A DNA stretch of 64,000 bases from Komagataeibacter sp. FNDCF1 (GTDB lineage Bacteria > Pseudomonadota > Alphaproteobacteria > Acetobacterales > Acetobacteraceae). The translations under genes and the position numbers were made by a program. Shown one piece after another: positions 21,153-50,190 of this stretch; position 1 is the stretch's first letter; each line of letters starts with the position of its first letter. The stretch is taken from contig NZ_JAIWOT010000001.1 of NCBI RefSeq assembly GCF_021295335.1, forward strand, positions 2,402,501-2,466,500, read 5' to 3'. The notes beneath the pieces were generated by a model. That model did no database searches. It was not told the origin of the DNA and saw nothing but the letters and a program-made list of their open reading frames with translations.

Positions 21153-22493
21153 CTATTCGGCCGTACGGGTATCCGGTGCAAAGACCAGGCAGTACAGGCC
21201 ACCCAGGCCAAGCAAAACCGCCGATACCTGAAGAACACGATCGGTCCCGAAATCCCGTGCCATAATGGGCAGCAGCAACGTGCACAGGGACACGCACAGC
21301 CGGGTTACCGTCTGTACCAGGCCATTGCATGAAGCCCTTACCGCAACGGGAAAGAGTTCAGCCATATAGACATACTGCATGCAGCACGCGGCGGATAGCA
21401 CCAGTGCAAAGACCGCCAGAAGCAGGATCTGTATTTCGGGTGCGAATGGATGCCCCGAAGCCAGAACAAAAAGCACGAACGAGGAAATCAGGAACGTACC
21501 GGACAGAAATGCCGGTCGGGATAACCGGTCCACGATGGCACGTCCGGCAAGGGAACCGATAATGATGAATACCGCATAAATCATGCCCCCCAGATAGGCA
21601 CTGTGGATACCAAGCGCGCCAAGGATCTGGAGCAGGAACGTACCGATCCCGAAAAAAGGTACGAGCTGCGCGGTCAGGAATACAAATGCTACAACCATGC
21701 GCCGTGGTACAGGCGCCGTGGCCAGTCCACCCCATTTATGCCTGCGTTCCGGTCTGGCCGTTGGCACCGCCCTGACCTGATAACCGGGAAAATGCCGCCG
21801 TATGATCACGGCCACATCATCATGCCGCTCCTTTGTCAGAAGCCAGGAAAGGGATTCCGGCAGACGCATCCGGACACCGTAGACCAGCATTGCCGGCAGG
21901 GCACTGAACATGAGACACCATCGCCAGCCGGAACCACCCGGCGCGCACCACAGATAGCCCAGCTGGAACGAAAGCGCGAAACCGAACGTCCAGCCCACAA
22001 GCATCGTACTGAGGCGTCTGCCCCGCGCGGCAAGGGGCGAAAACTCGATCTGATAGACATTCCCGGCCACATAGTCCGCCGCCAGGGCAACCCCCAGCGC
22101 AAACCGCAGCAGGGCAAGCTGCATAACGGACGTGACCAGCCCCTGTGCAAGCGAAAAGACAATGGTCAGCATCATCCCCGACTGCAGCAGGGGTTTGCGG
22201 CCGAACCGGTCCGCGGCCTGTCCGATCACGAATGCCCCGCACAGCAGCCCGAACAGCGTGCCACTCCCCACCATGCCGCTGCCCATGGCATCCGCATGCA
22301 ACGTATCATGAACAAAAGGCATGACCGCGCCAATGCCGCCAATTACATAGCCATCACAGAACATGCCCCCCACCGCACTGAACGCCACCATGGCATGCAG
22401 CCGACCACGCGGCAGTTCGCTCACATGGCAACATGTGAGACCGGATTGCGCAGGCGGAGGCACATGGATACCCTGCCCGGACGAACAGGTCAT
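21153..22493 (-). CDS. MFS transporter, sugar-porter/AAHS-like (446 aa)
   Basis: Twelve membrane segments are evident. The loop 2-3 signature GQAADRFGRKPLL and the PESLSWLL phrase after segment 6 place it in the sugar/organic-acid porter branch of the major facilitator superfamily. The ATG at 22493 overlaps the stop of the preceding MFS gene as ATGA. It is the last gene of an eight-gene minus-strand row starting at the TonB receptor (33025), so it probably imports a substrate or exports a product of that pathway. Substrate unknown. Confidence 0.88.
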   Translation of the reverse strand: MTCSSGQGIHVPPPAQSGLTCCHVSELPRGRLHAMVAFSAVGGMFCDGYVIGGIGAVMPFVHDTLHADAMGSGMVGSGTLFGLLCGAFVIGQAADRFGRKPLLQSGMMLTIVFSLAQGLVTSVMQLALLRFALGVALAADYVAGNVYQIEFSPLAARGRRLSTMLVGWTFGFALSFQLGYLWCAPGGSGWRWCLMFSALPAMLVYGVRMRLPESLSWLLTKERHDDVAVIIRRHFPGYQVRAVPTARPERRHKWGGLATAPVPRRMVVAFVFLTAQLVPFFGIGTFLLQILGALGIHSAYLGGMIYAVFIIIGSLAGRAIVDRLSRPAFLSGTFLISSFVLFVLASGHPFAPEIQILLLAVFALVLSAACCMQYVYMAELFPVAVRASCNGLVQTVTRLCVSLCTLLLPIMARDFGTDRVLQVSAVLLGLGGLYCLVFAPDTRTAE

Positions 22494-23704
22494 GGCACAT
22501 GGACAGTCCGGTTGAGTGTTTTCACAATGGCCGGAAGCGTGAATGGCAGTACACCCACACACCCTGCAAAACCGAGGATGCCGATGGCCACCAGCGGCAC
22601 ATTCGCGTCAATCATGATACCGGCAACAGGACCACTGACGGCAAAGGCCATTCTGTCACAACCACCGGCCAGTGCGCCCGTGCGCCCGGTCGGGTCAATG
22701 GCGGCTGCCACCCCCATGAGAATGGGATAGGCAAACATGACCGCAATGAAGAAAAGGACCATGCCCCCTACGTAAACGGCCGAAGAAGACCCGATATAGA
22801 TAATGATGCTGCCAATACCGCTTGCAGTCAGTCCAATGACAAGCAGGGCCTGTCGCGACAGATAACGCGACAGCAGGGCCGAACCGGTACTCCCCAGTAT
22901 GCCTGCAAAAATACTGGTGGAAAAAACCACGGACAGCATGGCGGGAGACATGTGCAGCGCCCGTCCCGCACGTTCAGCAAAGATCCATACGGCACTCATT
23001 CCCATCGAGGACGCGACCCATAATACCAGCAGCGCCACAACCCCGGCCCGCGTCGGCACGGGAGCAGGCCGCGCGATGGAAACCGTCCCGGATGCCGCGC
23101 CCCGCAGTCCCGCCAGCGGAAGAATGCAGGGAAGCAGTACGACAGGCACCGCGGCAAATGCCAGGAATGCCGCCGGGCGCGACATCCACGTGGATGCCAG
23201 ACCGGCCACATCTATGACGGCCACCGTAACAATAACGCTTCCGGCATTGGCAAAACTGTAAATACGGTCAGGTTCTTTCGTGCCGGCACCAGCCACGAAG
23301 AATCCGCCATAAAGCAGGCCGTATCCTATGCCGGACAGGGATGAATAAATGCAGATCCGTATTATTTCAGAGTAATCGAAATACAGGATCAGGTTCGCGC
23401 AGCTTACGATTACCGCTCCCCCTGTACAGGACCATACCGGGGGAATACGGGCGCTATAGGGAGCCAGAACCATCATCAGGAACGCCATGGAGGCAATCTG
23501 GCAGAAGCTGAAAAAACCCGTATCGGTTGCCGACAGATGGGCGGAATCCGTCAGGATGCCGACCTGAACGGGCATGGTTGAGGAACCAAGATGGCCAAGT
23601 CCGGCCACGACGGCAAAAGCGATATAAGGGCCGGGACCAAAATTGTCGCGCGCCGGCAGCACCAGCCTGTCCGACTGGTCCCGTTGTGTCACAGAACCGT
23701 CCAT
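22490..23704 (-). CDS. MFS transporter (404 aa)
   Basis: The protein has about twelve membrane segments with short loops and no close match to a named subfamily that I can identify; MPVQVGILTDSAHLSATDTGFF at the N-terminal half and DPTGRTGALAGGCDRMAFAVSGPVAG near the end resemble aromatic- or amine-transporting MFS members. AGGAGG is well placed seven bases before the ATG at 23704. It is 11 bp downstream of the ornithine-cyclodeaminase-like gene. Two consecutive carriers in one row suggest different substrates or an import/export pair. Confidence 0.82.
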   Translation of the reverse strand: MDGSVTQRDQSDRLVLPARDNFGPGPYIAFAVVAGLGHLGSSTMPVQVGILTDSAHLSATDTGFFSFCQIASMAFLMMVLAPYSARIPPVWSCTGGAVIVSCANLILYFDYSEIIRICIYSSLSGIGYGLLYGGFFVAGAGTKEPDRIYSFANAGSVIVTVAVIDVAGLASTWMSRPAAFLAFAAVPVVLLPCILPLAGLRGAASGTVSIARPAPVPTRAGVVALLVLWVASSMGMSAVWIFAERAGRALHMSPAMLSVVFSTSIFAGILGSTGSALLSRYLSRQALLVIGLTASGIGSIIIYIGSSSAVYVGGMVLFFIAVMFAYPILMGVAAAIDPTGRTGALAGGCDRMAFAVSGPVAGIMIDANVPLVAIGILGFAGCVGVLPFTLPAIVKTLNRTVHVP

Positions 23705-23715
23705 GTCCTGTCCTC

Positions 23716-24720
23716 CTAACCGGTTTTCGGGCTGGCACCTGCCGTTTCCGATGCGACACGATCAAGAACATAATTGGCGGTAAACAGATCCAGATGACCG
23801 CCGCCGGAATTCTTGTACAGCGTAATCTCGTCAGCGGACTCCCTGCCCTGCGCACCACTGCACAGGTCGAACAGATCCGCCTTGATGCTGTCCGCGGTAA
23901 TCAGACCTTCATCGATCGGTATGGTCAGGTCACCGCAACGCAGTGCATTGCGCCGTTCATTGGCGAACAGTGTGGCGCGGACCACGGCTTCGCTGTCCAC
24001 TTCGCGCATGCGCGGTGTCCAGCCACCGATCAGGTCGACATGCGTACCGGGACTGAGCAGCCTGCCATGCACCAGCGGTGTTTCCGCCATCGTGGCACAG
24101 CAGATGATGTCGGCACGCGGCACGGCCTCATCGATATTCTCAACGACCTCGAATGTCCTGCCTGTCCCGAACGGGCTGTCGACCAGCATCCGCTCCAGGT
24201 CCCGTGCACGACTGGCCCGCCGGTTCCACAGGAAGACATGCCGCAGGGATGGCCGGACGGAAAGATGCGCGGTCACGGCGTAATACGCCAGGCCGCCCGC
24301 TCCGACCATGAGAAGGGCCTGGCTGTCGGGTCGCGACAGCAGGCGCGAACCCAGGGCAGAGTCGCCCGCGGTTTTCCACACCGTCAGTTCCGTTCCATCG
24401 ACAATGGCGGTCGGCGTGCCGGTCTGGCCATCAAATACCACGACAATACCCTGCGCGGAGGGAATGCCATGGGTGGGATTGTCCGGAAAGAACGTCACCA
24501 GTTTGGCGCCAAGCACCTTGCCATCCTGCCAGGCGGGCAGGAGATTGAAGGCGTTGAAGCCACCCTCTATCGGGCGGGACAGCAGCAGTTCGGGGTCGAA
24601 TTCCATCCGTTCGCGATGCGCTTCGTACAGCGCATCGGTCAGGCTGACAAAATCCGACACACGGCTCATCGTTTCGGCATCAATGAAGCGTGGGCTGGAG
24701 CGCTTCCGTGCGGCGTCCAT
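23716..24720 (-). CDS. Ornithine cyclodeaminase / mu-crystallin family protein (334 aa)
   Basis: Members include ornithine cyclodeaminase, alanine dehydrogenase (Ala-DH) and delta-1-pyrroline-2-carboxylate reductase. The NAD(P) fold is visible at MVGAGGLAYYAVTAHL, and GAKLVTFFPDNP...GIVVVFDGQTGTPTAIVDG is the family core with the substrate lysine. Beside an N-demethylase of the methylproline type, a pyrroline-2-carboxylate or imine reductase role is attractive but is inference. Its start overlaps the stop of the upstream flavoprotein gene by one base (TGATG). Confidence 0.88.
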   Translation of the reverse strand: MDAARKRSSPRFIDAETMSRVSDFVSLTDALYEAHRERMEFDPELLLSRPIEGGFNAFNLLPAWQDGKVLGAKLVTFFPDNPTHGIPSAQGIVVVFDGQTGTPTAIVDGTELTVWKTAGDSALGSRLLSRPDSQALLMVGAGGLAYYAVTAHLSVRPSLRHVFLWNRRASRARDLERMLVDSPFGTGRTFEVVENIDEAVPRADIICCATMAETPLVHGRLLSPGTHVDLIGGWTPRMREVDSEAVVRATLFANERRNALRCGDLTIPIDEGLITADSIKADLFDLCSGAQGRESADEITLYKNSGGGHLDLFTANYVLDRVASETAGASPKTG

Positions 24721-26756
24721 CACAGTGCCCTCATGAAGCGTGATCCATCCAGAATGGCGGCATGTATGTTCCGGCTCAGCACGGCGTCGCCAATGCGCCA
24801 TAAATGGAAATTGCCCTGCGGATTGTTCATGAGCATCTGCGGCTGCATACTGACAAAGGCATCGTAATCGACTTCTCCCATATTATGTGAAAACGGCCTG
24901 AGCGCCTGATAGAGCGTATCCTCGGGCAGCGTCCCCTGTTCATAGACGACCTGCGCGACTTCGCGCTCTTCCTCCCGGTCACTGTATTCCTCGCGCAATA
25001 CGGCAACCAGACCATTTCCTTCGCGATAGACGTTGGTCAGATGATAGCCGGGGGTCATGACCACATCCTGTTCACGCAGGCGTTTCATGAAATGGACGCG
25101 CGCAAGGCCACCGATTTCCTCACCGATCATCTGGTCTGGTGTAACCATTTCCACCAGGGAACCCCGTTCCGCCATGAACTGGGCCACCGTGGCCCCCTGG
25201 TGCAGGCCCGTCAGGTCAAAGAGCAGTACATTGGGTGCGGGCCGGACCTTTCCCGAAAGGATGTCCCACGAAGGGATGGCATGTTCGGCACCCTGGAACA
25301 TGGGGGGCGGCACCCTGCCACCGGTCGCGATCACAACGGCATCCGGCTGTTCCGCCATGACGGCTTCCCTGTCTGCTTCGGTACCCAGCCGGATATCAAC
25401 CCCCAGCCGCTGCACCTCCATGTTCAGCCAGCGGGTGATGCCCCCCATGTTCTCACGCCAGGACAGGGCGCGTGCCAGCTGCACCTGGCCACCCGGCTGG
25501 GGCTCGCGCTCGAACAGCACGACATCATGCCCCCGCGCCGCCGCGACCCGTGCGGCTTCCAGCCCACCGGGCCCACCACCCACCACCACCACGCGACGGG
25601 GCTGTTCCGTGCGCCCGACGTCATGGGGCAGCAGTTTTTCACGGCCGGTTGAAATGTTCTGGATACAGATCGCCCCGCCAGCATCCACCCGGTCAACGCA
25701 GTAATTCGCACCGATACACTGCCGGATCTCGTCTTCACGGCCATTGAGCATCTTGTTGACCAGGTGCGGATCAGCGATGTGCCCCCGTGTCATGGCAACC
25801 ATATCAAGATGTCCTTCGCCGACCGCGCGCGCGGCCGTTGCAAGATCCCGGATGGCGGAGGCATGAAAGACCGGGATGTCGACTTCCGTCTTGATCGCAC
25901 TGGGCAGATAAAGGAAAGCACCTGAATCATAGGACATGTCCGGCAGCATGGTCTGCAGCGAACGGAATGAATCACCGGTGCCCTGATAGACGTTCAGGTA
26001 ATCAATCAGGCCGGAATTGGCGAAGGCCACAGCAATCTTCAGGCATTCCGCTTCGTTCAGCCCGCCCCTGATCAGTTCATCCCCCACGAAGCGGATGCCC
26101 ACGATGAAGTCGTCCCCGACCCGGTTGCGAATGGCCTCGAGCACCTCCATGCCAAAACGCATGCGGTTTTCCAGACTGCCCCCGTACCTGTCCGTCCGCT
26201 GATTGACCGCAGGGGAGAGAAAGCTGTCGATGAGCTGATGCGCGGCAAGCAGAAGTTCACACCCGTCCAGCCCGCCATCCTTGAGCCGCATCGCGGCATC
26301 GGCAAACTGCTTTATGACACGACGGAAATCAAAATCTTCCATTTCTTTTGCATAACAATGGTGCTGCTGCTCCCGGTTGGCGCTGGGGCCGATCAGCGGC
26401 AGCCAGCCCCGGGTATCCCACCGGCCCCGGCGGCCAAGATGGGTGATCTGGCAGAAGACCGCGGCACCCTCGCCGTGAATCCGGTCAGCGAATTCGCGCA
26501 GATAGGGCAGGACACGATCACTGCTGACATCGATCTGGGCAAAGGACAGCGGAGAGTCCGTCGCGATTGAGGAAGACCCGCCGAACATGGTCAGCGCAAG
26601 ACCGCCACGTGCCTTTTCCTGATGATAGAGCTGGTAGCGCTCCTTGGGCATGCCATCTTCCGCGTAGCCGGGGGCGTGCGCGGTACTGAAAATACGGTTG
26701 CGCAATACAAGATGCTTGAGACGGAACGGTTTGAGCAAAGCCTGATGATCGGTCAT
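24720..26756 (-). CDS. OYE-type flavin oxidoreductase with FAD/NAD domain, DgcA/methylproline-demethylase-like, paralogue 1 (678 aa)
   Basis: Residues 1-350 form the FMN barrel ([29 protein letters not shown], then QITHLGRRGRW), followed by an iron-sulfur segment and a dinucleotide domain (VVGGGPGGLEAARVA from about 391). The family includes trimethylamine dehydrogenase, dimethylglycine demethylase DgcA and stachydrine/methylproline demethylases. The cluster cysteines are C347, C353 and C364; the second position is A350 instead of Cys. The ATG at 26756 follows GGAGGAAAG. It lies in one row with ETF-like and DgcB-like genes, its expected electron route. The substrate is likely an N-methyl amino acid. 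Confidence 0.85.
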   Translation of the reverse strand: MTDHQALLKPFRLKHLVLRNRIFSTAHAPGYAEDGMPKERYQLYHQEKARGGLALTMFGGSSSIATDSPLSFAQIDVSSDRVLPYLREFADRIHGEGAAVFCQITHLGRRGRWDTRGWLPLIGPSANREQQHHCYAKEMEDFDFRRVIKQFADAAMRLKDGGLDGCELLLAAHQLIDSFLSPAVNQRTDRYGGSLENRMRFGMEVLEAIRNRVGDDFIVGIRFVGDELIRGGLNEAECLKIAVAFANSGLIDYLNVYQGTGDSFRSLQTMLPDMSYDSGAFLYLPSAIKTEVDIPVFHASAIRDLATAARAVGEGHLDMVAMTRGHIADPHLVNKMLNGREDEIRQCIGANYCVDRVDAGGAICIQNISTGREKLLPHDVGRTEQPRRVVVVGGGPGGLEAARVAAARGHDVVLFEREPQPGGQVQLARALSWRENMGGITRWLNMEVQRLGVDIRLGTEADREAVMAEQPDAVVIATGGRVPPPMFQGAEHAIPSWDILSGKVRPAPNVLLFDLTGLHQGATVAQFMAERGSLVEMVTPDQMIGEEIGGLARVHFMKRLREQDVVMTPGYHLTNVYREGNGLVAVLREEYSDREEEREVAQVVYEQGTLPEDTLYQALRPFSHNMGEVDYDAFVSMQPQMLMNNPQGNFHLWRIGDAVLSRNIHAAILDGSRFMRAL

Positions 26757-26843
26757 CTTTCCTCCGGAAATTTTTCCCTGATCGACAAGAACAGGTATCA
26801 GCACATTCGTGGCGGCATGCATCCCGACGGGGGGGCTGTTTTT

Positions 26844-27584
26844 TCACGGCGGCCTGAAAATGCCGTTCTGCTTCAGGAAATCCCGGATCGCCTCGGCGGC
26901 CTGTCGGGGGGTGGGGTCCTGCAGCACCACATTGGCCCGCCCGGTCCGCGCGTCCCCGCCGGCGCGCAGCCGTGGCGGTCGCGCGCGCGCGGGTCCCGAC
27001 GGCCAGGCCGCGCGTTCCTGATCCGTTGCAAATGCAAAGGGTTCCGGCACGATGATGCCGCGACGCGCACGATCATAGGCAAACTGACGCGGTGGCGGCC
27101 CTGCTGCCGCCACCATCAGGACGGCAGGCATCGCCACGTGCAGGCGCTGGCGCATGCCTCCCCTTCCGGCCTGAATGACTGTTACGGCATTTTCCCGCAC
27201 GCACTCCACGGCGGCGACGTCGGCCACCAGTGCGCAGCCAAGGGCCCGGGCAAGCAGATAGGGCACCATGCCACTGCATTCCCCCTGTTCCGCCCTGTCG
27301 CCACATATGATGAGGTCCGGTACCGGCGACTGCACAAAGGACAGGATGGCGGGTGTGATCTCCACATCCCCATCAGCAGGCCCACGGACATGAAGCCGCG
27401 GCAGGCCCATGCCCAGATAGTCCCGCAATGCGGGGTCGGCCGGATTACCGACATGCAGGGCACGGGGGGTGGCTGTAATGTCCAGGGCAAGCGACAGGGC
27501 GGACACATCCGCCCGCGCGGCACGGGGCCGGCCGGAAACCGGGTGCCGGCCACGTGAAAGCAGGACCATGACATCAACCGTCAT
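26844..27584 (-). CDS. Divergent electron-transfer flavoprotein beta-subunit-like protein (246 aa)
   Basis: Overall fold features match ETF-beta (DLIICGDRAEQGECSGMVPYLLARALG corresponds to the [25 protein letters not shown] region), but the canonical signature REVDGGLE, present in the second beta subunit at 45031, is lost here (QAGRGGMRQRLHVAMPAV). The DgcB-linked ETFs of other bacteria are similarly divergent. GGAGG precedes the ATG at 27584 by nine bases. The 5' end overlaps the alpha-like gene by 11 bp. It probably accepts electrons from the flavoprotein at 24720. Confidence 0.8.
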   Translation of the reverse strand: MTVDVMVLLSRGRHPVSGRPRAARADVSALSLALDITATPRALHVGNPADPALRDYLGMGLPRLHVRGPADGDVEITPAILSFVQSPVPDLIICGDRAEQGECSGMVPYLLARALGCALVADVAAVECVRENAVTVIQAGRGGMRQRLHVAMPAVLMVAAAGPPPRQFAYDRARRGIIVPEPFAFATDQERAAWPSGPARARPPRLRAGGDARTGRANVVLQDPTPRQAAEAIRDFLKQNGIFRPP

Positions 27585-30632: not shown

Positions 30633-30634
30633 TT

Positions 30635-33025: not shown

Positions 33026-33100
33026 GGCTACCGACTCCTTTTACATGAATTCAGGAAAGAGGCAACTTGTTCACACACACGTTATAAGTAAGTTTTTATC

Positions 33101-39381: not shown

Positions 39382-39533
39382 GTCAATCCGCCTTTCAGCC
39401 ATCTTGACCCCGCATCCCCACGGGCCGCGCACATGCTGGAATCCTGAATATCTCCTCCGTGGGGGAAATGCATTGATGCCTGATGACAATCTGCTGCCCG
39501 CAGATGACAGTCACGCCGGCACATGACAGCAGC

Positions 39534-40878: not shown

Positions 40879-40922
40879 GCGGACAGGCCGGATCGGGTTA
40901 CCATCCGAACCGGCCTGTCCGC
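40879..40922 (-). terminator. 18-bp stem-loop 6 bases after the paralogue-2 flavoprotein gene
   Basis: Arms at 40879-40896 and 40905-40922 pair over 18 positions with one mismatch and an 8-nt loop. It stands immediately beyond the stop codon at 40928. No T-run follows on the minus strand, so it is either a non-standard terminator or an RNA-stabilising 3' hairpin. The rest of the 377-bp gap 40551-40927 would hold the AraC promoter; nothing else is recognised. Confidence 0.6.
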
Positions 40923-40927
40923 ACATC

Positions 40928-42859: not shown

Positions 42860-43091
42860 AATGAATAAACTCCATCATTTCCATCGTCGGACTGACGCGG
42901 CGCAGGGAATGCCAGTCCAGCAATGCCCGCCATGGTACGAAACCGTTCGCCACGCACATGGTGACGGACCGGTCCATAACCGGGCCTGCACGATTCAACG
43001 ATAGAAATCTAACCTTATGCAGAGATGATATTCCATATCTTATTTCGTATTTTTAACAATTTTCGCAATACAATCCCGATCTGGATCAATA

Positions 43092-43112
43092 TTTCCTGAA
43101 CACATCAGGAAA
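43092..43112. promoter_or_regulatory. Perfect 8+8 palindrome upstream of the paralogue-2 gene; candidate TetR operator
   Basis: TTTCCTGA (43092-43099) and TCAGGAAA (43105-43112) are perfect mirror arms around ACACA. It lies 233 bp upstream of the flavoprotein start and beyond the 3' end of the TetR gene. The same TTTCCTGA followed by CAC occurs at 47977 in front of the paralogue-3 operon. The gap 42860-43259 (400 bp, AT-rich in part) contains the promoter of paralogue 2 and no evident gene. Confidence 0.5.
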
Positions 43113-43259
43113 AACATGACAGATTTTCATTCCTGTTAGTACAGCATTACACGGACCATACCAGAAAGTAGGCCATTCCCAGCTTTACAGTCCCATTCTG
43201 TATTGGTTTCCTGACCGCGTTCCGGGTTTTCAGTTCATCCGCCTGCTTTCATCATGCCG

Positions 43260-43901
43260 TCAGGTCCTGGCATCGGCGACCAGCACGTGATGGCGTGCAA
43301 AAAAGCGATCAAGGTCATGGGGTTGGGGCGCATGACCTGTAAAGATTTCTATGTAACTGGGAATACGATCCAGGCGGTTGGCAATATCTTCCCTGGTCTG
43401 GTTCGAAATATATCCGATCTGCACCAGATAGAGCGCGTGGGCCCGGACATCCGCCGATGTCGCACTGAAGCCGAAGCGGCGGAACATGCCCATCAGCGCT
43501 TCAAGCCTGCAAGCATCAGCGGCCTGGACTTCGTTGAAGATATCGGGGGACTGCTGCGCCCAGCTACGCACCGCGAATTCCAGCCGTGCATCAAAAAGCG
43601 TTTCATCCAGCCAGCAGTCAAATACATTCAGCGTCGCCTCCACGATCGTTTCGGCATAGGCCTCGGCCTGCTTGACTATGCTTCCCGTATTCTTTTCCCG
43701 CCAGCGTGTCACAAGGGCATCAAGAAGCTGCTCCCGGTCCCTGAAGAACCAGTAAAAGCTGGTGCGTGACAGATTCAGCCTGTTGGCAAGCGTCAGGATC
43801 TTTACGGCGTCAACACCGCTTTCAAGCAGGGTATCATAGGCGGCATCAATCCAGATTTCGGTCGAACCCCGCTTGTTTCCTTCGGTTGCACCTGCATTCA
43901 T
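43260..43901 (-). CDS. TetR-family transcriptional regulator (213 aa)
   Basis: The N-terminal helix-turn-helix (about 15-60) reads IDAAYDTLLESGVDAVKILTLANRLNLSRTSFYWFFRDREQLLDALV, the standard TetR form. The C-terminal ligand-binding part is a helical bundle without recognisable motif. The ATG at 43901 was chosen over an upstream in-frame start at 43955 because TetR similarity and the AGAGG site begin there. It lies between the etfA-containing operon and the paralogue-2 gene, both likely targets. Confidence 0.92.
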   Translation of the reverse strand: MNAGATEGNKRGSTEIWIDAAYDTLLESGVDAVKILTLANRLNLSRTSFYWFFRDREQLLDALVTRWREKNTGSIVKQAEAYAETIVEATLNVFDCWLDETLFDARLEFAVRSWAQQSPDIFNEVQAADACRLEALMGMFRRFGFSATSADVRAHALYLVQIGYISNQTREDIANRLDRIPSYIEIFTGHAPQPHDLDRFFARHHVLVADART

Positions 43902-44024
43902 GCCGCCGCGCCTCTTTCCTTCAACTGCTGAAAATCCCTGGATATTGCAGGGCAATCATACCCGGATCGGGGCACATCACGCGAGCATGGAGGCATCATC
44001 CGGCCGGCCGGCCGGCAGCCACCA

Positions 44025-44057
44025 GCATTCCGCACGGCCTGTTGGCGTGCGGAATGC
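44025..44057 (-). terminator. Perfect 12-bp stem-loop after etfA
   Basis: GCATTCCGCACG (44025-44036) and CGTGCGGAATGC (44046-44057) pair perfectly around a 9-nt loop, 20 bp beyond the etfA stop at 44078. As with the hairpin at 40879, no T-run follows on the minus strand. A (CCGG)4 tract lies just beyond at 44000-44015. Confidence 0.6.
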
Positions 44058-44077
44058 ATGATGGGCATGGATGCCTG

Positions 44078-45010
44078 TCACAGACACTTCTGTATTGCCG
44101 GCAGGGCCTCGAACAGATCGGCCTTCAGCCCGTAATCGGCCACCTTGAAGATGGGCGCATCCGGGTCGCTGTTGATGGCAACAATGACCTTTGAATCCTT
44201 CATCCCGGCGAGATGCTGGATCGCACCCGAAATGCCCACGGCGATGTAGAGCTCGGGTGCCACGACCTTGCCGGTCTGCCCGACCTGCCAGTCATTGGGC
44301 GCGTAGCCGGAATCCACGGCGGCGCGACTGGCGCCCACCGCCGCCTTCAGCCTGTCGGCCAGGGGAAAGAGAACCTCCTGGAACCTGTCGGCCGAACCCA
44401 GCGCCCGACCACCGGACACGATGATCCTGGCCGATGTCAGTTCCGGGCGTTCGGATTCGGACAGCGCATTGGACACGAATACCGAAAGCGGCGGCGAGAG
44501 CTCCGGCACGGCCAGTGTCTCGACCGGGGCGCTGCCACCCGTCGTCGCCGGAAGAAAGGCGGAGGAACGGACCGTTATGACCTGGACCGGGTCCGTCGTC
44601 TGTATTGTCTGGATGGCATTGCCCGCATAAATGGGGCGCTTGAAGGTATCAGGGCCCAGTACCTCGATAATTTCGGATACCTGCATGACATCAAGGGATG
44701 CCGCCACCCGGGGCATGATGTTCTTGCCATTGGACGTGGCGGCCGACAGGATCGTGCGATAGGCCGGGGCAAGCGAGACGATGAATTCCGCCAGCGGTTC
44801 AGCCACCGCGTGGGCAAGCCGGTCATCATCCGCGACCAGCACCCTGCTCACGCCAGCCAGTGCCGCCGCTTCGGCCGCAACCGCCGAGACGTCTTTCCCC
44901 GCCACGAGGACATGGACATCATCACCAATAGCCGATGCCGCCGTAAGCGCCTTTACCGTCTGTTCGGAAAGGGCCGTATTATCGTGATCTGCCAGAAGAA
45001 GAATGGTCAT
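44078..45010 (-). CDS. etfA: Electron transfer flavoprotein alpha subunit (310 aa)
   Basis: Standard ETF-alpha. The FAD-binding C-terminal domain shows [85 protein letters not shown]. It forms a heterodimer with the beta subunit encoded 20 bp upstream and takes electrons from the demethylase-type flavoprotein encoded ahead of it, passing them to the quinone pool through an ETF dehydrogenase or the DgcB-like protein at 28722. No ETF:ubiquinone oxidoreductase gene is in the window. Confidence 0.96.
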
Positions 45011-45030
45011 TATGCTATTTCACCCATCTA

Positions 45031-45780
45031 TTAGATGATATCGGTCTCGGCCCTGAGCTTTTCCACCAGTTCAGCAGGAGACCCGACCATGATCCCGGCC
45101 TTGCGCGCGGGGGCTTCTTCCGTTGCCAGTACCTTCAGCCGTGGCGCCACGGACACGCCCAGATCCTCCGGCTTCATCTTCTGCACCGGTTTCCTGCGCG
45201 CTTTCATGACATTGGGAAGCGAGACATAACGCGGTTCGTTCAGACGCAGGTCGGTCGTGACAACCGCGGGCAGGCTGGTCCTGACTGTCTGGAGGCCGCC
45301 ATCAACCTCCCGCGTCACGACAGCGCTGTCCCCCTCGATCACGACCCGGGAGGCAAAGGTCGCCTGCCCCCATCCCAGCAGTGCCGCAAGCATCTGCCCG
45401 GTCTGGTTGCTGTCATCATCGATCGCCTGCTTGCCTGCAATGATCAGGCCGGGCTGTTCGGTATCCGCAACCGCGCGGAGCAGCTTGGCCACGGCCAGCG
45501 GCTCGACACTCTCGTCCGTCTGGACAAGGATGCCACGGTCCGCCCCCATGGCCAGCCCGTTGCGCAGCACGTCCTCCGCCTTTGCGGGACCGATGGAAAC
45601 CAGAACGATTTCCGACGCGACACCGGCTTCCTTCAGCCGGATCGCTTCCTCAACCGCAATCTCATCAAACGGGTTCAGGGACATCTTGGCATTTTCAAGC
45701 GCGACACCGGAGCCGTCGCGTTTGACATGCACCTGCACATTGGCGTCCAGCACCCGCTTGACGGGAACGAGTATCTTCAT
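45031..45780 (-). CDS. etfB: Electron transfer flavoprotein beta subunit (249 aa)
   Basis: Standard ETF-beta, starting [23 protein letters not shown]. The AMP-site stretch [23 protein letters not shown] and the signature [31 protein letters not shown] are intact. It contrasts with the divergent beta-like protein at 26844, which lacks this signature. The gene lies 74 bp after the paralogue-3 flavoprotein gene and 20 bp before etfA. Confidence 0.96.
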
Positions 45781-45854
45781 GACTTTCCTCGCATGATCGG
45801 CTGTCCGCCCCGCCCTGCCATACAGGGCATGACCGGGGCGGAGCGTGGCCGGTA

Positions 45855-47891
45855 TCAGATATCCTTGGCGATACGCAGACCGTCATAAATGGCCGCATGC
45901 GTGTTGCGCGCGGCAACCGCGTCACCAATCCGGAACAGCTGGAAGGCGCCCTGCGGGTTACGGACCACCGACTGCGGTTCCCCCGCGGTCAGCTGGTCGT
46001 GCGATATTTCACCCAGGTTGACGGAATCCGGCTTGAGATCGAAATAAAGCTCGTCAAGCGGGCGCGTGCCGTGGTTGACGACAACCTGATCCACGATGCG
46101 CTGCTTGTCCACGCCACCATAATCACTGCCCACCGCAACATTGAGCATGTTGCCTTCCTTCGCCACGGAACGGATGCGGTAGGTGACCGTGAACGTCACG
46201 TCTTCCTTCTGCAGGGACCGCATGTAGGGCACCAGGTTCATGGCCATGACTTCTGGCGAGAACGAACGGTCCGGCGTCATGATCTCGACCCGGGCGCCGG
46301 AAGCGGCCAGGAACTCGGCAGCCTGCAGGGCGGCATGGTCACCCGCGTCATCAAAGACCAGCACGTTGGAGCCGGGCTTGACGTCACCGGAAATGATGTC
46401 CCACGCCGAGACGACATGCTCGTTGCCGCTCGACAGGACCTCGGTATGCGGCAGGCCACCCGTCGCGATGATGACCACATCGGGGTTTTCCGCCTTGATC
46501 GTATCGGCATCGGCCCAGGTATTGAAACGGAAGGTGACATCATGCTTGGCGCACTGGCTCATCCGCCAGTCGATGATGCTGATCATCTCGCGTCGGCGCG
46601 GGCTCTGCGCGGTCAGGCGGATCTGGCCGCCCGGCTTGTCCGACAGTTCGAACACGACAACCTCATGCCCGCGTTCACCCGCCACGCGGGCAGCTTCCAT
46701 CCCTGCGGGACCGGCGCCGACAATCACCACCTTCTTGCGGGTGGCCGCCTTCTCGATGATGTGGGGCATGTTCACTTCACGGCCGGTCGCCGCGTTGTGG
46801 ATGCAGAAGGCGGCACCACCCTGATAGATGCGGTCGAGGCAGTAATTCGCGCCCACGCACGGACGGATGTCTTCCTCGCGCTTTTCCATGATTTTGCGCA
46901 CCAGGTGCGGTTCCGTCATGTGCGCGCGCGTCATGCCGACCATGTCGACCTTGCCTGATGCAATGGCGTGCCGGGCGGTCGCGACATCGGGAATCTTGGC
47001 GGCGTGGAAGGTGGGGAAATCGGTCGCCGCGCGGATTTCACCCGCAAAATCCAGATGCGGCGCGTTGGCCATGCCCTGGATGGGGATGAGATCGGTCAGG
47101 CCCGGATCCGTATCGATATGGCCGCGCACGACATTGAGGAAGTCGATCAGCCCGCTATCCTTCAGCTTGCGCGAGATCTGCAGCCCTTCTTCCTTGCCAA
47201 AGCCACCCTGCTCCATCTCGTCACCCGTATAACGGATGCCTACGATGTAGTCCGGCCCGACACGCTTGCGGATTTCCTTCAGCACATCGAAGGTGAACTT
47301 CATCCGGTTGTCGAGCGAACCGCCATACGGCCCTTCAAGCTCGTTGGTGAGCGGTGACCAGAACTGGTCCATCAGATGGCCGTAGGCCTGCAGTTCGATC
47401 CCGTCCATGCCGGCCGCCTTCATGCGTTCGGCCGCGTCGGCATAGTCCTTGATGATCCGTTCGATATCCCACTCTTCCATCTTCTTGGGGAAGGAACGGT
47501 GGGCGGCTTCGCGGTTGTGGGAAGGCGATACGACCGGAAGCCAGAATTCCTTGTCCCAGCGCGTGCGGCGGCCAAGGTGGGTCAGTTGGATCATGACGGC
47601 CGCACCCTGTTCGTGCACGGCGTCGGTCAGTTCCTTCATCCAGGGAACAACCTCGTCCTTGTAGACGAGCAGGTTGTTGAAGACCGGCGGGCTGTCCTTG
47701 GACACGGCGGCGGAACCGGCCGTCATGGTCATGGCCACGCCGCCTTTCGCACGCTCGACATGATAGGCGCGGTAACGTTCCTTGGGCATCCCGTCCTCGG
47801 GGTATGCCGGCTCATGCGACGTGACGATAATCCTGTTCCGTAACGTCAGATGCTTGAGCTGATAGGGCTGAAGAAGGGGATCTTCCGACAT
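45855..47891 (-). CDS. OYE-type flavin oxidoreductase, DgcA/methylproline-demethylase-like, paralogue 3 (678 aa)
   Basis: Same length as paralogue 1. FMN barrel 1-350 ([46 protein letters not shown]), cluster segment with C345, A348, C351 and C363 ([19 protein letters not shown]), dinucleotide domain from about 385 ([18 protein letters not shown]). This sequence is the closest of the three to dimethylglycine and methylproline demethylases. It is followed by standard etfB and etfA, its probable electron acceptor. An oxidative N-demethylation releasing formaldehyde is the inferred reaction. Confidence 0.88.
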
Positions 47892-47976
47892 CGCACTACT
47901 CCAGATCCGGTCATGTCCGGATCATTGGCTTGAGATCAGGTACACGTGTGTAACTTTCATATTCATGATAGAACAT

Positions 47977-48001
47977 TTTCCTGACACTGGTGAACAGGTT
48001 T
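47977..48001. promoter_or_regulatory. Imperfect dyad in front of the paralogue-3 operon
   Basis: TTTCCTGA-cactgg-TGAACAGGTTT resembles the palindrome at 43092 in its left arm and is partly mirrored on the right. It lies 86 bp upstream of the flavoprotein start. Nearer the gene, ATCCGG..CCGGAT forms another short dyad, and an ACACGTGT palindrome lies at about 47942. The 481-bp gap 47892-48372 therefore holds promoter elements, then the terminator of the aldolase gene, and no protein gene that I can support. Confidence 0.35.
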
Positions 48002-48017
48002 TTTCATCGTAATAATC

Positions 48018-48037
48018 AAAAACCGCCCGCGGGCGGT
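48018..48037 (-). terminator. Intrinsic terminator downstream of the class II aldolase gene
   Basis: ACCGCCCGC-GGGCGGT is a perfect 16-bp palindrome (48022-48037); read on the minus strand it is followed by five T's. It would end leftward transcripts coming from the aldolase gene before the paralogue-3 operon promoter. The distance from the aldolase stop (about 335 bp) is long, so another terminator may exist nearer, for example the GGCCGTG/CACGGCC hairpin at 48321-48337. Confidence 0.65.
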
Positions 48038-48372
48038 CCGCACCCCACGTGGCAGCGTGCTTTTGCCTTCCGTCAGCGCGGGCACGGGGCCCGCAGCCGG
48101 TATCGCGCCCATGGCGGCAAGGCCGGGGGAGCCGCCATGCGGTTCCGATTCGCAGGGTCATTTCCGCGCCCGTCGCAGCGAAGCACCGCCACCCGGCGGG
48201 TTGTGCCATGCCCGTCACCACCCCGATTTCCCGTACAGGCAGACCGGTCGGCAGGATGCCCATACGGCAGCAGGCGTGCCAGAAGGACATCCGGCACGCC
48301 TGCGATAGAAAACCGTCACGGGCCGTGCGGCACGGCCATGCGGGGGGTCATGTCATGTTCAGGCCAGGAGCG

Positions 48373-49146
48373 TCAGGTCCGGTAATCCGGCTGCTCGCGG
48401 TCAAGCTTGCGCCGCAGGGCCTGCCAGACCAGACGCCCGCCATCGGGGTCGTCATCGAACTGCTTTTTCGTACGCTGGATCTGCGCGGCGGAGGGAATGT
48501 GCAGCGGCACGCCCGTGGCCTGTGCCGCGACCTGGATCCGGCAGGCCTGTTCCAGATAGTACATGCGGTAGAAGGTATGCGCCACGGTATCACCAACCGT
48601 CAGCAGTCCATGGTTCTGCAGGATCAGCGCATTGTGGGTGCCCAGGTCACGCACCAGGCGTTCACGCTCGCCCATGTTGTCATCGGCGGCGATGCCCTCG
48701 TACGGGTGGAAGCCGACACTGCCATAGAATTCCATGTTGATCTGGTTGAGCGGCAGGATGTTCGTATCCTGCGCCGCCACCACCATGCCGGGCACGGTAT
48801 GGGTGTGCATGACGCAGGCGGCATCGGGCCGGCTGCGATGAATGGCGGAATGGATGACGAACCCCGCCGGGTTGATCGGCCATGATGTTTCCTGCCGGGG
48901 CAGGCCATCCGCATCGACCACCACCAGGGAACTGGCGGTGATTTCCTCGAACAGGAGGCCATAGGGATTGACCAGATAGGCATGGGCGTGCCCCGGCAGC
49001 CGCACGGACAGGTGGGTATAGACAAGGTCGGTCATGCCGAAATGCGCCATGAGGCGATAGGCCGCCGCCAAGTCCTCACGCAGGTCCTGCTCGGTCGTGG
49101 AGGTTGGGGAAACCGGTGAAGTCAACATGGTATCGAAAAATCCCAT
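48373..49146 (-). CDS. Class II aldolase/adducin family protein (257 aa)
   Basis: Zinc-dependent aldolase fold (fuculose-/ribulose-phosphate aldolase, AraD type). Metal ligands are seen in VMHTHTVPGMVVAA and ILQNHGLLTVGDTVAHTFYRMYYLE, with TDLVYTHLSVRLPG earlier. Many members of this sub-branch, including adducin-like and decarboxylase types, have unknown substrates. The start at 49146 (MGFFDTM) is uncertain; 49128 is an alternative. It stands between the dimethylargininase-like gene and the demethylase operon, all on the same strand. Confidence 0.88.
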   Translation of the reverse strand: MGFFDTMLTSPVSPTSTTEQDLREDLAAAYRLMAHFGMTDLVYTHLSVRLPGHAHAYLVNPYGLLFEEITASSLVVVDADGLPRQETSWPINPAGFVIHSAIHRSRPDAACVMHTHTVPGMVVAAQDTNILPLNQINMEFYGSVGFHPYEGIAADDNMGERERLVRDLGTHNALILQNHGLLTVGDTVAHTFYRMYYLEQACRIQVAAQATGVPLHIPSAAQIQRTKKQFDDDPDGGRLVWQALRRKLDREQPDYRT

Positions 49147-49317
49147 CCTGTGACAAATGCCCCAACGCACGGCTGCCGCCCGTGTCAGGCAGCACCATGA
49201 TAGGGCGGAATGATATGAATCGGCAACGATGATCCATCATTCCCCCAAACGGGAACGCGTGCCCCGGGCCCGTCTGTCGGGTCCTGCCGCGCGTGCGGGC
49301 GCGGCCCCGCCACTAGC

Positions 49318-50190
49318 CTATCCCGGCAGGAGCGAGCGGCGGCGCAGGGGCATGGTCATGCAGTGGATGCTGCCACCGCCCTGCGAGAACTGGTCGAGTT
49401 CGGGGTCCAGCACGTCCAGCCCCTCCGCGCGCAGCATCTGGTTGATGCGCGTGCAGTGCCGCGGGCTGATCACGCGCCCGCGCCCCAGCGCCAGCACGTT
49501 GCAGCCCATGTCGCGCATGGCCTCGCGGTAGCTGACCGGCAGCAGGCGGATGCCCTGCGTGCGGAACCAGTCCAGATCCGCATCGGACAGCACGTCCACC
49601 GCCGCGATGGCAAGGTTCTCCGCCACCATGGTGAAGATCACGTCGAGATGCAGGAAATGTTCGGGAAAACGGATCATCCGGCATGTCCAGCCCGCATCCT
49701 CGAACCAGCCCATGAACTCGGCCGCACCCGCGGCGTCCGTGCGGCCACCGCTTACACCCACCGCCAGCAGGCCGGGGCGGATGATGTGGATGTCACCGCC
49801 TTCGATATGCCCCTTCGTGCAGGTCTTCCAGATCGCGTCGCGGCCATAGAAATCATGCACCGGCCCGATCTCCGCCCGGCGTTCGGGGCGTGACAGGCGG
49901 GTGACGACGGTGCCGAACGGCGTGGTCTGGGAACTGTCGCGGGTATAGACCTCGTAGGGCATGCCTTCATGCGGGGTCAGGAAATGGCAGCTGACCCCGG
50001 CTTCACGCAGGGTGGCGACCAGCCCGTCAAACTGCGCCCGCAGCGCCGCGCGGTCGATGGTCGCACCCGATGCCATGCTCTGGATGGCGATGTCGTTGCT
50101 GGGAATCCAGGCATAATGGTCCGGCGGGCACAGCAGCACGTCCGCCAGTTCCCCGGTTTCACTATCCACAAACCAGCGGTTCGTTCCCAT
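49318..50190 (-). CDS. Dimethylarginine dimethylaminohydrolase / amidinotransferase superfamily (290 aa)
   Basis: Guanidine-modifying enzyme with the complete superfamily motif set: E130-G-G-D133 (HIEGGDIHI), H181-L-D (HFLHLDVIFTMV) and the catalytic C277 (SIHCMTM). The N-terminus (ADVLLCPPDHYAW) and the 290-aa length fit DDAH and related arginine-derivative hydrolases rather than the longer arginine deiminase. DDAH yields citrulline and dimethylamine. AAGGATGACGGGACA precedes the ATG. Divergent LysR and amino-acid ABC genes support use of an arginine derivative as nutrient; the exact substrate is inference. Confidence 0.85.
   Translation of the reverse strand: MGTNRWFVDSETGELADVLLCPPDHYAWIPSNDIAIQSMASGATIDRAALRAQFDGLVATLREAGVSCHFLTPHEGMPYEVYTRDSSQTTPFGTVVTRLSRPERRAEIGPVHDFYGRDAIWKTCTKGHIEGGDIHIIRPGLLAVGVSGGRTDAAGAAEFMGWFEDAGWTCRMIRFPEHFLHLDVIFTMVAENLAIAAVDVLSDADLDWFRTQGIRLLPVSYREAMRDMGCNVLALGRGRVISPRHCTRINQMLRAEGLDVLDPELDQFSQGGGSIHCMTMPLRRRSLLPG

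Follow-up and report, generated by a model that had tools for sequence, protein, structure and literature searches.

Results

Scans of the open reading frames against Pfam and NCBIfam covered positions 21153-50190 (about 29 kb) of the window, the 64,000-nucleotide stretch of Komagataeibacter sp. FNDCF1 that we analyzed. They confirmed the flavoprotein and electron-transfer classes named in the original prediction, namely three Oxidored_FMN plus Pyr_redox_2 proteins (here OYE1, OYE2 and OYE3), two ETF pairs and a DUF3483/Fe-S DgcB-like protein, and likewise an OCD-family enzyme, a saccharopine-dehydrogenase-like protein, a class II aldolase and an ADI/DDAH-family hydrolase. An APH-type kinase adjoins a class III PLP enzyme, as predicted (Pfam and ORF coordinates). 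Both MFS carriers and the TonB-dependent receptor were also found by Pfam, the second carrier weakly and under the cut-off. 2-Hydroxyacid dehydrogenases had been listed in the plural; the class is present as a single copy (Pfam). Profile scans added three features absent from that list, an AraC regulator (39534-40652), a TetR regulator (43260-43955) and an IS5-type element (36049-36985). The genes had been described as lying nearly all on one strand, and the 20 intact named genes in 21153-50190, transposase aside, are all on the minus strand; the IS5-type element is the sole plus-strand gene identified there. The Dgc-type ETF, OCD and OYE proteins of the region all score under NCBIfam cut-offs.

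Judged by sequence relationships, the region appears to hold several amine-catabolism gene sets of separate inheritance and not one pathway. Three genes are most related to Komagataeibacter and Kozakia among their plasmid relatives. For OYE1, OYE2 and the kinase, no orthologue was found among the congeners searched (18 congeners; family sample, three candidates scored per genome), and the kinase gave only 35-38% matches in the 18 congeners. Genome searches revealed five full-length OYE/FAD paralogues, all of which fall in a 155-kb span of a single 3.53-Mb contig. This clustering exceeds chance, at about 2 in 100,000 for uniform independent placement with local duplication ignored.

A tree of 36 flavoprotein rows separated OYE1-type proteins, gbc-linked DgcA and StcD into three supported sub-clades (7 rows, 100/100; 5 rows, 100/100; 12 rows, 98/95), which together form one 24-row clade (100/99). 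The branching order among the three is without resolution, and OYE2 sits on a long branch with unsure placement. The active-site segment reads [AST]AH[HQ]L in 7/7 OYE1-type rows, AHGHL in 5/5 gbc-type rows and [AT]YGHL in 10 of the 12 Stc-type rows. The position of the FadH Tyr that we take to be catalytic is occupied by Gln, Met and His in OYE1, OYE2 and OYE3, respectively; the Tyr is kept in FadH, NCR and also in histamine dehydrogenase. Likewise, the second Cys of the four-Cys 4Fe-4S motif is Ala in OYE1-3 and Cys in FadH, NCR and histamine dehydrogenase. The original prediction had placed the flavoproteins with N-demethylases and had named grouping with 2-enoate reductases as the outcome that would speak against it. 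OYE1 and OYE3 indeed fall with the N-demethylases, away from the ene-reductases, and OYE1-3 all lack the FadH Tyr.

OYE3 (45855-47891) is, by sequence, an orthologue of StcD, and therefore a plant-betaine step is strongly indicated. It matches R. etli StcD at 83.6% (78% identity in DNA), carries the AYGHL active-site segment of StcD and clusters with three rhizobial StcD rows (100/99). A dedicated ETF pair and the TetR regulator share the locus: EtfB2 (45031-45780) is 71% to rhizobial etfB-2, EtfA2 (44078-45010) 72% to etfA-2 and the TetR 64-65% to the rhizobial TetR beside stcD, the EtfB, EtfA and TetR (65%) counterparts all coming from the same rhizobial locus as the StcD match. OYE3 is thus a predicted StcD-type N-methylproline demethylase, 82-84% to rhizobial StcD proteins and 75% to a Paracoccus protein annotated HpbA, and shares TetR and EtfBA partners with the R. 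etli Stc module. Unlike in the rhizobial module, where the TetR gene is divergent, the window TetR lies downstream; the pyrroline-5-carboxylate reductase and cupin of that module have no match in the window, and no Rieske gene was found in the window. Genes of the pyrroline-5-carboxylate reductase, cupin and Rieske types lie about 54-60 kb off on the same contig. Three Rieske genes, of the oxygenase type that would carry out the first demethylation, were found in the genome, one of which (C1:2385827) adjoins a GbcB-like reductase. A homologue of StcD at 77% is present in the congener G017, and part of this module could therefore be older in the genus.

OYE1 (24720-26822) is a predicted Dgc-type FMN/FAD N-demethylase (Pfam, tree, residues). 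At higher coordinates lie EtfB1 (26844-27677; Pfam ETF; NF051844 191.2 bits, cut-off 350), EtfA1 (27574-28824; Pfam ETF_alpha; NF051845 212.2 bits, cut-off 600) and the DgcB-like membrane Fe-S protein (28722-30632; Pfam DUF3483, 4Fe4S and CCG domains), which is 51-53% to Azospirillum DgcB-like proteins. In PMC12093977, DgcAB is described as a flavoprotein, a DUF3483 DgcB and an ETF pair, and the OYE1 set contains the same four parts as this ETF-linked dimethylglycine demethylase. OYE1 matches the gbc-linked DgcA of its own genome at 53% and the Azospirillum B510 one at 57%. However, it belongs to the separate 7-row clade (100/100) and has AAHQL in place of AHGHL, which argues against OYE1 being a gbc-linked DgcA. 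Moreover, the window is without gbcAB, and the neighbors of OYE1 are OCD, TonB and MFS genes, whereas the canonical gbcA-gbcB-gbdR-dgcA-dgcB-etf-adh set for glycine betaine sits elsewhere in the genome. OYE1, DgcB and EtfAB make up a Dgc-type complex with all its parts, and OYE1 forms its own clade next to those of gbc-linked DgcA and StcD.

The neighboring OCD-family protein (23716-24801) is of the ketimine/pyrroline-2-carboxylate reductase type (Pfam OCD 149.7 bits; NF004793 289.9 bits, cut-off 322). The whole OYE1-DgcB-EtfAB-OCD set recurs in five loci and OYE1-OCD in a sixth, short contig. OCD homologues near the OYE1 relatives in these six other alphaproteobacterial loci are at 42-46%; the window OCD is closer to a Shinella copy (50.8%). 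Relatives of OCD and OYE1 are accompanied by genes for ABC or TRAP transporters of the amino-acid type. In Flavimaricola and Labrys, a SIS-domain protein and a sugar kinase (PfkB or ROK) lie alongside the OYE1-type genes; the Flavimaricola SIS protein is closest to fructoselysine-6-phosphate deglycase, at 98.8 bits well under the cut-off of 430. MFS1 (21153-22562; Pfam Sugar_tr/MFS_1), of the sugar/aromatic acid:H+ symport type, is 45% to an MFS protein adjoining the genome's second betaine-type cluster. MFS2 (22490-23704; MFS_1 19.3 bits, cut-off 33.4) is very divergent, with no match in the plasmid search and no homologue among the loci compared. The TonB-dependent receptor (30635-33025; Pfam) has a 47% paralogue in its own genome and, among plasmid proteins, is closest to relatives in Komagataeibacter (47.5%; the gene adjoins betA/betB) and Kozakia.

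OYE2 (40928-42859) seems to be a divergent third kind of FMN/FAD enzyme. It has a 64% relative in Lichenifustis and a broken 67% copy in genome G506, and matches in the family sample are otherwise at 37% or below. Beside it lie the AraC regulator of the QhpR family (NF049968 255.5 bits, cut-off 250), which is 33-36% to the AraC proteins adjoining 4/5 kinase-PLP loci, the saccharopine-dehydrogenase-like oxidoreductase (38197-39489; Pfam; only 50 bits to the carboxyspermidine dehydrogenase PDB 8deb) and the D-2-hydroxyacid dehydrogenase (37253-38488; Pfam). The family match of the latter begins at residue 120, and its true start is probably near 38.19 kb. These four genes may form one further set. 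OYE1 and OYE2 are near neighbors in Lichenifustis, and the two sets may therefore cooperate.

The APH-family small-molecule kinase (33294-34292; Pfam APH; PDB 6ef6 175.9 bits) and the class III PLP enzyme, probably a phospho-lyase (34289-35572; Pfam Aminotran_3), overlap by 4 bases. The Glu/Arg pair, presumably functional in ArgD-type enzymes, is changed at both residues in 9/9 sequences of the PLP clade (control: E. coli ArgD), and its absence argues against an ArgD-type class III aminotransferase. The PLP enzyme is 52-57% to a clade found with a kinase, at some loci together with acylating-aldehyde-dehydrogenase-like and CcmP-like shell proteins. Among five loci with 54-57% relatives the former occur in three and the latter in all five, both under NCBIfam cut-offs. 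Other relatives follow a gene of a phosphatase family and have no annotated APH-type kinase closer than 10 kb; on a Phyllobacterium plasmid, 63 kb separate the PLP gene from a kinase homologue (30%). An APH-type kinase adjoining a class III PLP enzyme is likewise found in the Aut/RMM amino-alcohol pair, although the window kinase is only 31-36% to those of the five loci and the best match to an acylating aldehyde dehydrogenase in the genome is distant (35 bits over 163/531 residues). By these comparisons, an amino-alcohol kinase with a phospho-lyase fits the pair better than the hydroxylysine route.

At the end of the region lie a class II aldolase (48373-49170; 84.6% to K. saccharivorans) and the ADI/DDAH-family hydrolase (49318-50190; 82.9% to K. 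saccharivorans from residue 1; PF02274 85.2 bits, PF19420 65.2 bits). Their unit, here the acetic-acid-bacterial (AAB) module, extends to about 53.96 kb with three plus-strand genes (Pfam) for a LysR regulator (50549-51544), a solute-binding/permease fusion (51283-53202) and an ABC ATPase (53003-53959), the last two probably starting later than annotated. Plasmids of Komagataeibacter and Kozakia carry the combination as well, sharing the DDAH-like ADI (74-83%), aldolase (78-85%), binding-protein/permease and ABC ATPase genes. The LysR gene has the same position in K. saccharivorans, and none is annotated there in Kozakia. The plasmid modules carry a glyoxylate/hydroxypyruvate reductase alongside, and the 147-base gap that separates ADI and aldolase in the window holds none. 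Methylated arginine had been proposed as a substrate; family membership aside, nothing points to it, the DDAH-like relatives sitting with aldolase and amino-acid ABC genes. No flavin N-demethylase is annotated near them in the stretches compared.

Discussion

Acetic acid bacteria are familiar as oxidizers of sugars and alcohols, and among the papers listed by searches of an open-licence library we found none that joins methylated-amine catabolism of this sort with them. We consider it probable that at least five amine-catabolism modules, each inherited separately, are stacked here on one strand as a mosaic. The single dedicated route of the original prediction finds no support, since the modules differ in relatives and in distribution; its plant-betaine part is strongly indicated for the OYE3 step but unsupported as one route for the whole cluster. 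Homology, clades, gene neighborhoods and active-site residues are the observations here, from which we infer all reactions, electron routes and substrates. OYE3, as an FMN/FAD enzyme, would oxidize the N-methyl group of N-methylproline, itself from stachydrine, with loss of formaldehyde, and electrons would pass to its own ETF, EtfA2-EtfB2. The kinase would phosphorylate a hydroxylated amine, and the PLP enzyme would then split off ammonia and phosphate, leaving an aldehyde. The AAB module may take up and hydrolyze a compound that is amidine-type or amino-acid-like.

The modules are mostly fresh members of established kinds, with the OYE1 module as the interesting remainder. Its set would act as an oxidative N-demethylase complex in which electrons run from FMN via FAD and ETF to DgcB, the membrane Fe-S protein, and on to the quinone pool. 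The substrate would be an N-methylated amino acid or amine, neither dimethylglycine nor N-methylproline, after which the OCD-family enzyme may interconvert imine and amino acid. The TonB receptor and both MFS carriers likely belong to this module. The SIS protein and sugar kinase seen nearby in other genomes suggest that the substrate could be an Amadori-type sugar conjugate of an N-methylated amino acid, or its free form. Tentatively, OYE1-DgcB-EtfAB-OCD, helped by OYE2 in some species, might even represent a third ETF-linked N-demethylation class with an undescribed N-methylated substrate, which we regard as possible though rather doubtful. The OYE1 clade is a testable case: a Dgc-type complex, marked by an active-site segment of its own and present in several alphaproteobacteria, whose substrate could be found by assay. 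A species that carries five of these flavoproteins, including two from the StcD group, would probably use plant osmolytes as nitrogen and carbon sources.

It is hardly credible that these flavoproteins belong to the 2-enoate or 2,4-dienoyl-CoA reductases, in a cluster unrelated to N-methyl groups. NCR (229.7 bits) and FadH (210.9 bits) are the top-scoring solved structures for OYE1, FadH (237.4 bits) is that for OYE2, and the highest NCBIfam scores, for mycofactocin OYE, BaiCD and bilirubin reductase, all stay under cut-off. However, FadH and NCR stand apart from OYE1 and OYE3 in the tree, ETF genes are linked to both (DgcB also to OYE1), and OYE1-3 have the substitutions at the Tyr and the second Fe-S Cys, whose loss is a quick way to tell them from the reductases whose models and structures they match best in routine scans. 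Closer to the original prediction, the whole stretch might serve one methylated or hydroxylated lysine-type compound, converted to aminoadipate semialdehyde. The OCD family includes lysine cyclodeaminase, a saccharopine-dehydrogenase-like gene is present, and hydroxylysine kinase and a phospho-lyase for its product are known enzymes, both from animals. The genome also has an L-piperidine-6-carboxylate dehydrogenase (808 bits, cut-off 730), found in 1/14 control genomes, but its gene, about 2.1 Mb off on the contig, may belong to normal lysine degradation. OYE3 as a likely proline-betaine enzyme, the separate relatives of the DDAH-like/aldolase part, the amino-alcohol-like clade of the PLP enzyme and the weak similarity of the saccharopine-dehydrogenase-like protein to characterized enzymes make such a lysine route quite improbable.

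The PLP, kinase and TonB genes and the OYE1 set follow one another on the same strand, no more than 268 bases apart, and the OYE1 and kinase-PLP modules could therefore share transcript and purpose. Together, perhaps with OYE2, they would form one pathway for an N-methylated amino alcohol: TonB/MFS uptake, OYE demethylation, then kinase and PLP lyase yielding aldehyde, phosphate and ammonia. The company of the PLP clade resembles amino-alcohol microcompartments as described in PMC4207490 and PMC6620236, the TonB receptor has its closest plasmid relative beside betA/betB, and in Pseudomonas MPC6 three MFS genes follow a PLP-kinase pair. Nevertheless, we judge this pathway unlikely: neither PLP nor kinase occurs in any of 18 OYE1-comparison loci within the stretches examined, the amino-acid-type transporter genes beside OCD and OYE1 relatives point elsewhere, MFS2 lacks homologues among the loci compared, and the genome has no close acylating aldehyde dehydrogenase. 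A decaying pile-up in which some parts have stopped working is quite improbable as well. In G506 the relative of OYE2 is broken, the rhizobial cupin genes are unmatched in the window, and the IS5-type element (DDE_Tnp_1 transposase 36125-36961; inverted ends of about 26 bp), of which the genome carries no fewer than 35 near-full-length copies, counting both in the window, splits a SnoaL_4 gene between the 2-hydroxyacid dehydrogenase and the PLP enzyme. Its minus-strand remnants are C-terminal (35742-36050; SnoaL_4 positions 47-124 of 126, 41.7 bits) and N-terminal (36987-37295; positions 3-41, 22.3 bits, just under the cut-off of 24). The N-terminal stretch includes a lead-in that overlaps the 2-hydroxyacid dehydrogenase end. 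Yet the remaining family-assigned ORFs are open, and the insertion looks recent, being 100% identical to other copies.

Gene content and layout of the cluster

The observation of the gene cluster itself is sound. Pfam and NCBIfam scans recovered the gene classes listed in the original prediction, except that one 2-hydroxyacid dehydrogenase (HADH, 37253-38488, minus strand) is present and not several, and they added an AraC regulator, a TetR regulator and an insertion sequence (IS). The description as one dedicated cluster proved too simple. We found one StcD-type module (TetR-EtfA2-EtfB2-OYE3), one Dgc-type module (OYE1-DgcB-EtfA1-EtfB1-OCD, with a TonB receptor and MFS carriers) and neighbouring genes. 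The OYE3 module is clearly a StcD-type system. The OYE1 module is a Dgc-type system, and the remaining genes are neighbours, which may have other roles.

Junctions within the minus-strand gene run are mostly short or overlapping. Longer gaps separate HADH from the PLP enzyme (1680 bases, with the IS inside), TetR from OYE2 (400), OYE2 from AraC (275) and the kinase from the TonB receptor (268). The frame overlap between the saccharopine-dehydrogenase-like SacDH (38197-39489, minus strand) and HADH is read as a start-codon artefact, because the HADH family match begins at residue 120. An open reading frame at 47922-48290, without a Pfam match, is doubtful and was omitted from the gene list. Promoter and terminator scans of 20700-40600 gave counts near chance (6 vs. 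7.4 expected; 18 vs. 15.2). A phosphoketolase (XFP) gene lies on the right flank (57243-59612).

Phylogeny and active-site residues of the flavoproteins

Genome searches revealed five full-length OYE/FAD proteins within 155 kb of the 3.74 Mb genome, of which the window is a part. On their contig they lie at 2294937, 2376063, 2427223 (OYE1; window 24720-26822), 2443431 (OYE2; 40928-42859) and 2448367 (OYE3; 45855-47891), the latter three on the minus strand. A maximum likelihood tree (IQ-TREE, LG+C20+F+G4) was calculated from 36 rows, which are the sequences fetched here and not a broad sample; Azospirillum is represented by two of its eight pattern-scan loci, plus B510. The tree revealed a 24-row clade (100/99) consisting of three sub-clades with unresolved branching order. 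The gbc-type sub-clade has five rows (100/100), and linkage to glycine betaine genes was seen in two of them, the genome's own 2295-kb copy and B510. The OYE1-type sub-clade has seven rows (100/100), while the Stc-type sub-clade has twelve (98/95) and includes OYE3 and the 2376-kb paralogue. NCR, FadH and two FadH-like rows group outside the 24-row clade. The original prediction had named grouping with 2-enoate reductases as a result that would speak against it; OYE1 and OYE3 stand apart from FadH and NCR, and OYE2 pairs with a Lichenifustis copy (100/100) outside the 24-row clade, where a long-branch warning makes its placement loose.

In the alignment column of the FadH catalytic Tyr, the 24-row clade carries His in 22 rows and Gln in two (OYE1 and Flavimaricola). 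Both OYE2 rows have Met, and the other ten rows have Tyr (8/10) or Leu (2/10). The second Cys of the Fe-S motif is replaced by Ala (23/24) or Met (1/24) in the clade and by Ala in both OYE2 rows, and is kept in 10/10 of the others. The active-site segment reads AHGHL in 5/5 gbc-type rows, [AST]AH[HQ]L in 7/7 OYE1-type rows and AYGHL or TYGHL in 10 of the 12 Stc-type rows; of the other two, the 2376-kb paralogue has CASHL and Mesorhizobium AASHL.

OYE3 belongs to a StcD-type module

In tblastn searches against plasmids, OYE3 was 83.6% identical to Rhizobium etli StcD, annotated as N-methylproline demethylase, and the genes share 78% DNA identity over 2045 bases. On pSymB of Sinorhizobium meliloti, stcD is described as encoding the N-methylproline demethylase of stachydrine catabolism (PMC12239276). 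The rhizobial locus has the order TetR, stcD, cupin, etfB, etfA. Besides the StcD homologue, the window shares with it TetR (65%), EtfB (71%) and EtfA (72%), whereas the rhizobial cupin has no match in the window. One of 18 congeners, G017, carries a StcD homologue (77%) with a TetR; an ETF match was not found in the 19.9 kb around it, and in the 36-row tree this homologue branches outside OYE3 and the rhizobial rows (97/96). These findings suggest that OYE3 was acquired by horizontal transfer.

OYE1 relatives and their neighbourhoods

The search for OYE1 covered plasmids, 18 congeners, and a further 5 members of the family and 16 of the class; named species genomes were examined by a pattern scan that detects close relatives only. 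The congeners showed no OYE1 orthologue. The scan returned 18 loci, with identities of 69% in Gemmobacter, 67% in Shinella and Rhizobium, 63% in Labrys, 59% in Lichenifustis, 57% in Flavimaricola and eight Azospirillum loci, and 46-49% in four others. The Azospirillum B510 gene lies near genes for an aromatic-ring-hydroxylating dioxygenase, an oxidoreductase and sarcosine oxidase, which is a glycine betaine setting.

A homologue of the ornithine-cyclodeaminase-like OCD (23716-24801, minus strand; 42-46%) occurs in six of the 18 loci (L070-L073, L082 and L087). Five of these also hold DgcB and EtfAB; the sixth, L070, is a 9.6-kb contig. OCD was not found at E 1e-12 in the eight Azospirillum and four distant loci (L083-L086). 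Amino-acid-type ABC genes are common to L071-L073, L082 and L087, and a GlpD-like FAD protein to L070-L073, with a distant version in L087. The Labrys and Flavimaricola loci additionally encode a SIS-domain protein and a sugar kinase, and OCD-SIS-PfkB is also found in two Sulfitobacter plasmids with no OYE gene annotated nearby. Altogether, OCD accompanies a SIS-domain protein in L082, L073, L180, L181 and L182, with a PfkB or ROK sugar kinase in 4/5, a recurrence that hints at sugar-amine conjugates. In Microvirga, OCD and TRAP genes lie within 13 kb together with SIS and FAD proteins and a flavoprotein resembling OYE2 (31%). In Neorhizobium NCHU2750, OCD and peptide-type ABC genes share an 11-kb stretch with a GlpA-named protein and an OYE protein that is 48% identical to OYE1; DgcB is not annotated in this stretch.

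A dgcAB_fixAB system has been described, with dgcA needed for growth of Vibrio natriegens on dimethylglycine (PMC12093977). Among the matches listed in searches of open-licence literature, we found no paper on catabolism of this type in Acetobacteraceae or acetic acid bacteria.

Betaine-type sets elsewhere in the genome

The 2295-kb paralogue is surrounded by a GbdR-like regulator, GbcB, GbcA, a second DgcB, an ETF pair and the formaldehyde dehydrogenase AdhI. GbcA, GbcB and GbdR score below their NCBIfam cut-offs and AdhI above. This set is the standard glycine betaine route and lies outside the window. A second betaine-type set (L011/L012, about 2376-2395 kb), some 8 kb from the StcD-like 2376-kb paralogue, comprises a Rieske oxygenase (2385827) with a GbcB-like reductase, an enolase-superfamily protein, an MFS carrier, a gamma-butyrobetaine-dioxygenase-like protein, an aldolase and LysR; it also matches the rhizobial stc-linked pyrroline-5-carboxylate reductase (64%) and cupin (55%).

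The kinase-PLP pair and other neighbours

Relatives of the kinase (33294-34292, minus strand) reach only 35-38% in 18 congeners, and a paralogue in the same genome (2107 kb) 37%. Across a sample of the class, a kinase match of any strength was found in 50 of 385 genomes, this one included. Two PLP subgroups occur beside such kinases. Kinase neighbourhoods of Agrobacterium and Rhodococcus were set aside; they contain a different subgroup (27-31% to the window PLP). The window PLP (34289-35572, minus strand) is 52-57% identical to eight sequences, from five alphaproteobacterial loci (L166-L170) and plasmids of Phyllobacterium, Mesorhizobium and Pseudomonas. We took the ArgD Glu/Arg pair (second Glu of EPIQGEGG, Arg of MRFAP) as our assumed yardstick for a class III aminotransferase. 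All nine sequences of the PLP clade lack this Glu, with E-T/V-IPAT instead, and the Arg, with LQFK instead. The other 18 kinase-locus sequences likewise lack the Glu motif, and 17 of them show [LVI]K[IMV]RP at the second site, which is not covered in one.

The five loci share a conserved ABC transporter set and an AraC that is 33-36% identical to the window AraC in four; the L166 copy (24%) is set apart. A 531-residue acylating-aldehyde-dehydrogenase-like protein is encoded in three of the five (L167, L168, L170), scoring 434.8 bits at best and thereby under the cut-off. L170 has a CcmP-like shell protein (208.9 bits, not reaching the cut-off of 340) with homologues of 40-95% in the other four. 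These would be microcompartment-like amino-alcohol loci. Amino-alcohol microcompartments contain phosphotransferase and aminotransferase genes, with the pathway left open in PMC4207490 and PMC6620236; the latter proposes the aminotransferase as first step. In the window, the kinase would act first, followed by the PLP enzyme as a phospho-lyase. PLP follows an alkaline-phosphatase-family gene in Phyllobacterium and Mesorhizobium, with no APH-type kinase annotated within 10 kb; this arrangement points to a phosphorylated substrate. On the Phyllobacterium plasmid, a kinase homologue of 30% identity lies 63 kb from PLP. A close acylating aldehyde dehydrogenase was not found in the window's own genome.

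We considered a single hydroxylysine or methyl-lysine pathway, since aminoadipate semialdehyde can be drawn as the common endpoint of OCD, SacDH and the kinase-PLP pair, and a P6C dehydrogenase scoring over cut-off is present in the genome. It was rejected as the main view because PLP falls in a different clade and the relatives seen do not show the modules linked. Two explanations from mobile DNA were also rejected. Two identical, inverted IS5-type copies (36049-36985, 937 bases with ~26-base inverted ends; 54686-55622) would bound a composite transposon at 36985-54686. Such flanking is not telling, because the genome holds at least 35 copies of at least 932 bases (26 at 100%, 6 at 97%, 3 at 94%), a lower bound from 40 of 65 first-look candidates scored. 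A tRNA-Leu (20830-20917) abuts the left end, but an island bounded by it was rejected: at the settings used, the search of 20800-56000 gave no repeat of this tRNA of at least 24 bases.

In a family sample with three candidates scored per genome, 70 of 397 genomes, this one included, matched OYE2 at E 1e-75 or better. Beyond its own copy, identity exceeded 37% only in G506 (67%), where the gene is fragmented across different frames. In Lichenifustis (L087), a copy of 64% identity is separated from OYE1 by one gene. The AraC (39534-40652, minus strand) scores above the QhpR cut-off. SacDH neighbourhoods in Acidisoma, Haladaptatus and Terrarubrum (27-32%) contain transporter and alcohol/aldehyde dehydrogenase genes and were discarded, showing no shared pathway.

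DDAH-like gene, TonB receptor and minor features

Among plasmids, the ADI-family gene has its nearest relatives in Komagataeibacter saccharivorans (82.9%) and Kozakia baliensis (73.8%); for the aldolase the corresponding identities are 84.6% and 78.2%, and the TonB receptor, too, is most closely related to plasmid genes of these genera. On this basis the host would be an acetic acid bacterium. Plasmids of the two genera share the ADI-family gene, a binding-protein/permease fusion, an ABC ATPase, the aldolase and a glyoxylate/hydroxypyruvate reductase, with LysR annotated beside the ADI-aldolase set in the Komagataeibacter plasmid. A flavin N-demethylase is not annotated in these stretches, whose gene tables are incomplete. 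By family membership alone, the DDAH-like gene could act in dimethylarginine breakdown. A Komagataeibacter TonB receptor (L178, 7027-13836), 47.5% identical to that of the window, adjoins betA/betB, which hints that such receptors may take up quaternary amines across the outer membrane.

IS copy 1 splits a SnoaL_4 gene; one piece matches profile positions 47-124, and the other, scoring just under the cut-off, positions 3-41. An AT-rich 32-nt inverted repeat (54454-54581) lies just before the second copy, and GC falls to 0.503 in the stretch at 54-56 kb.
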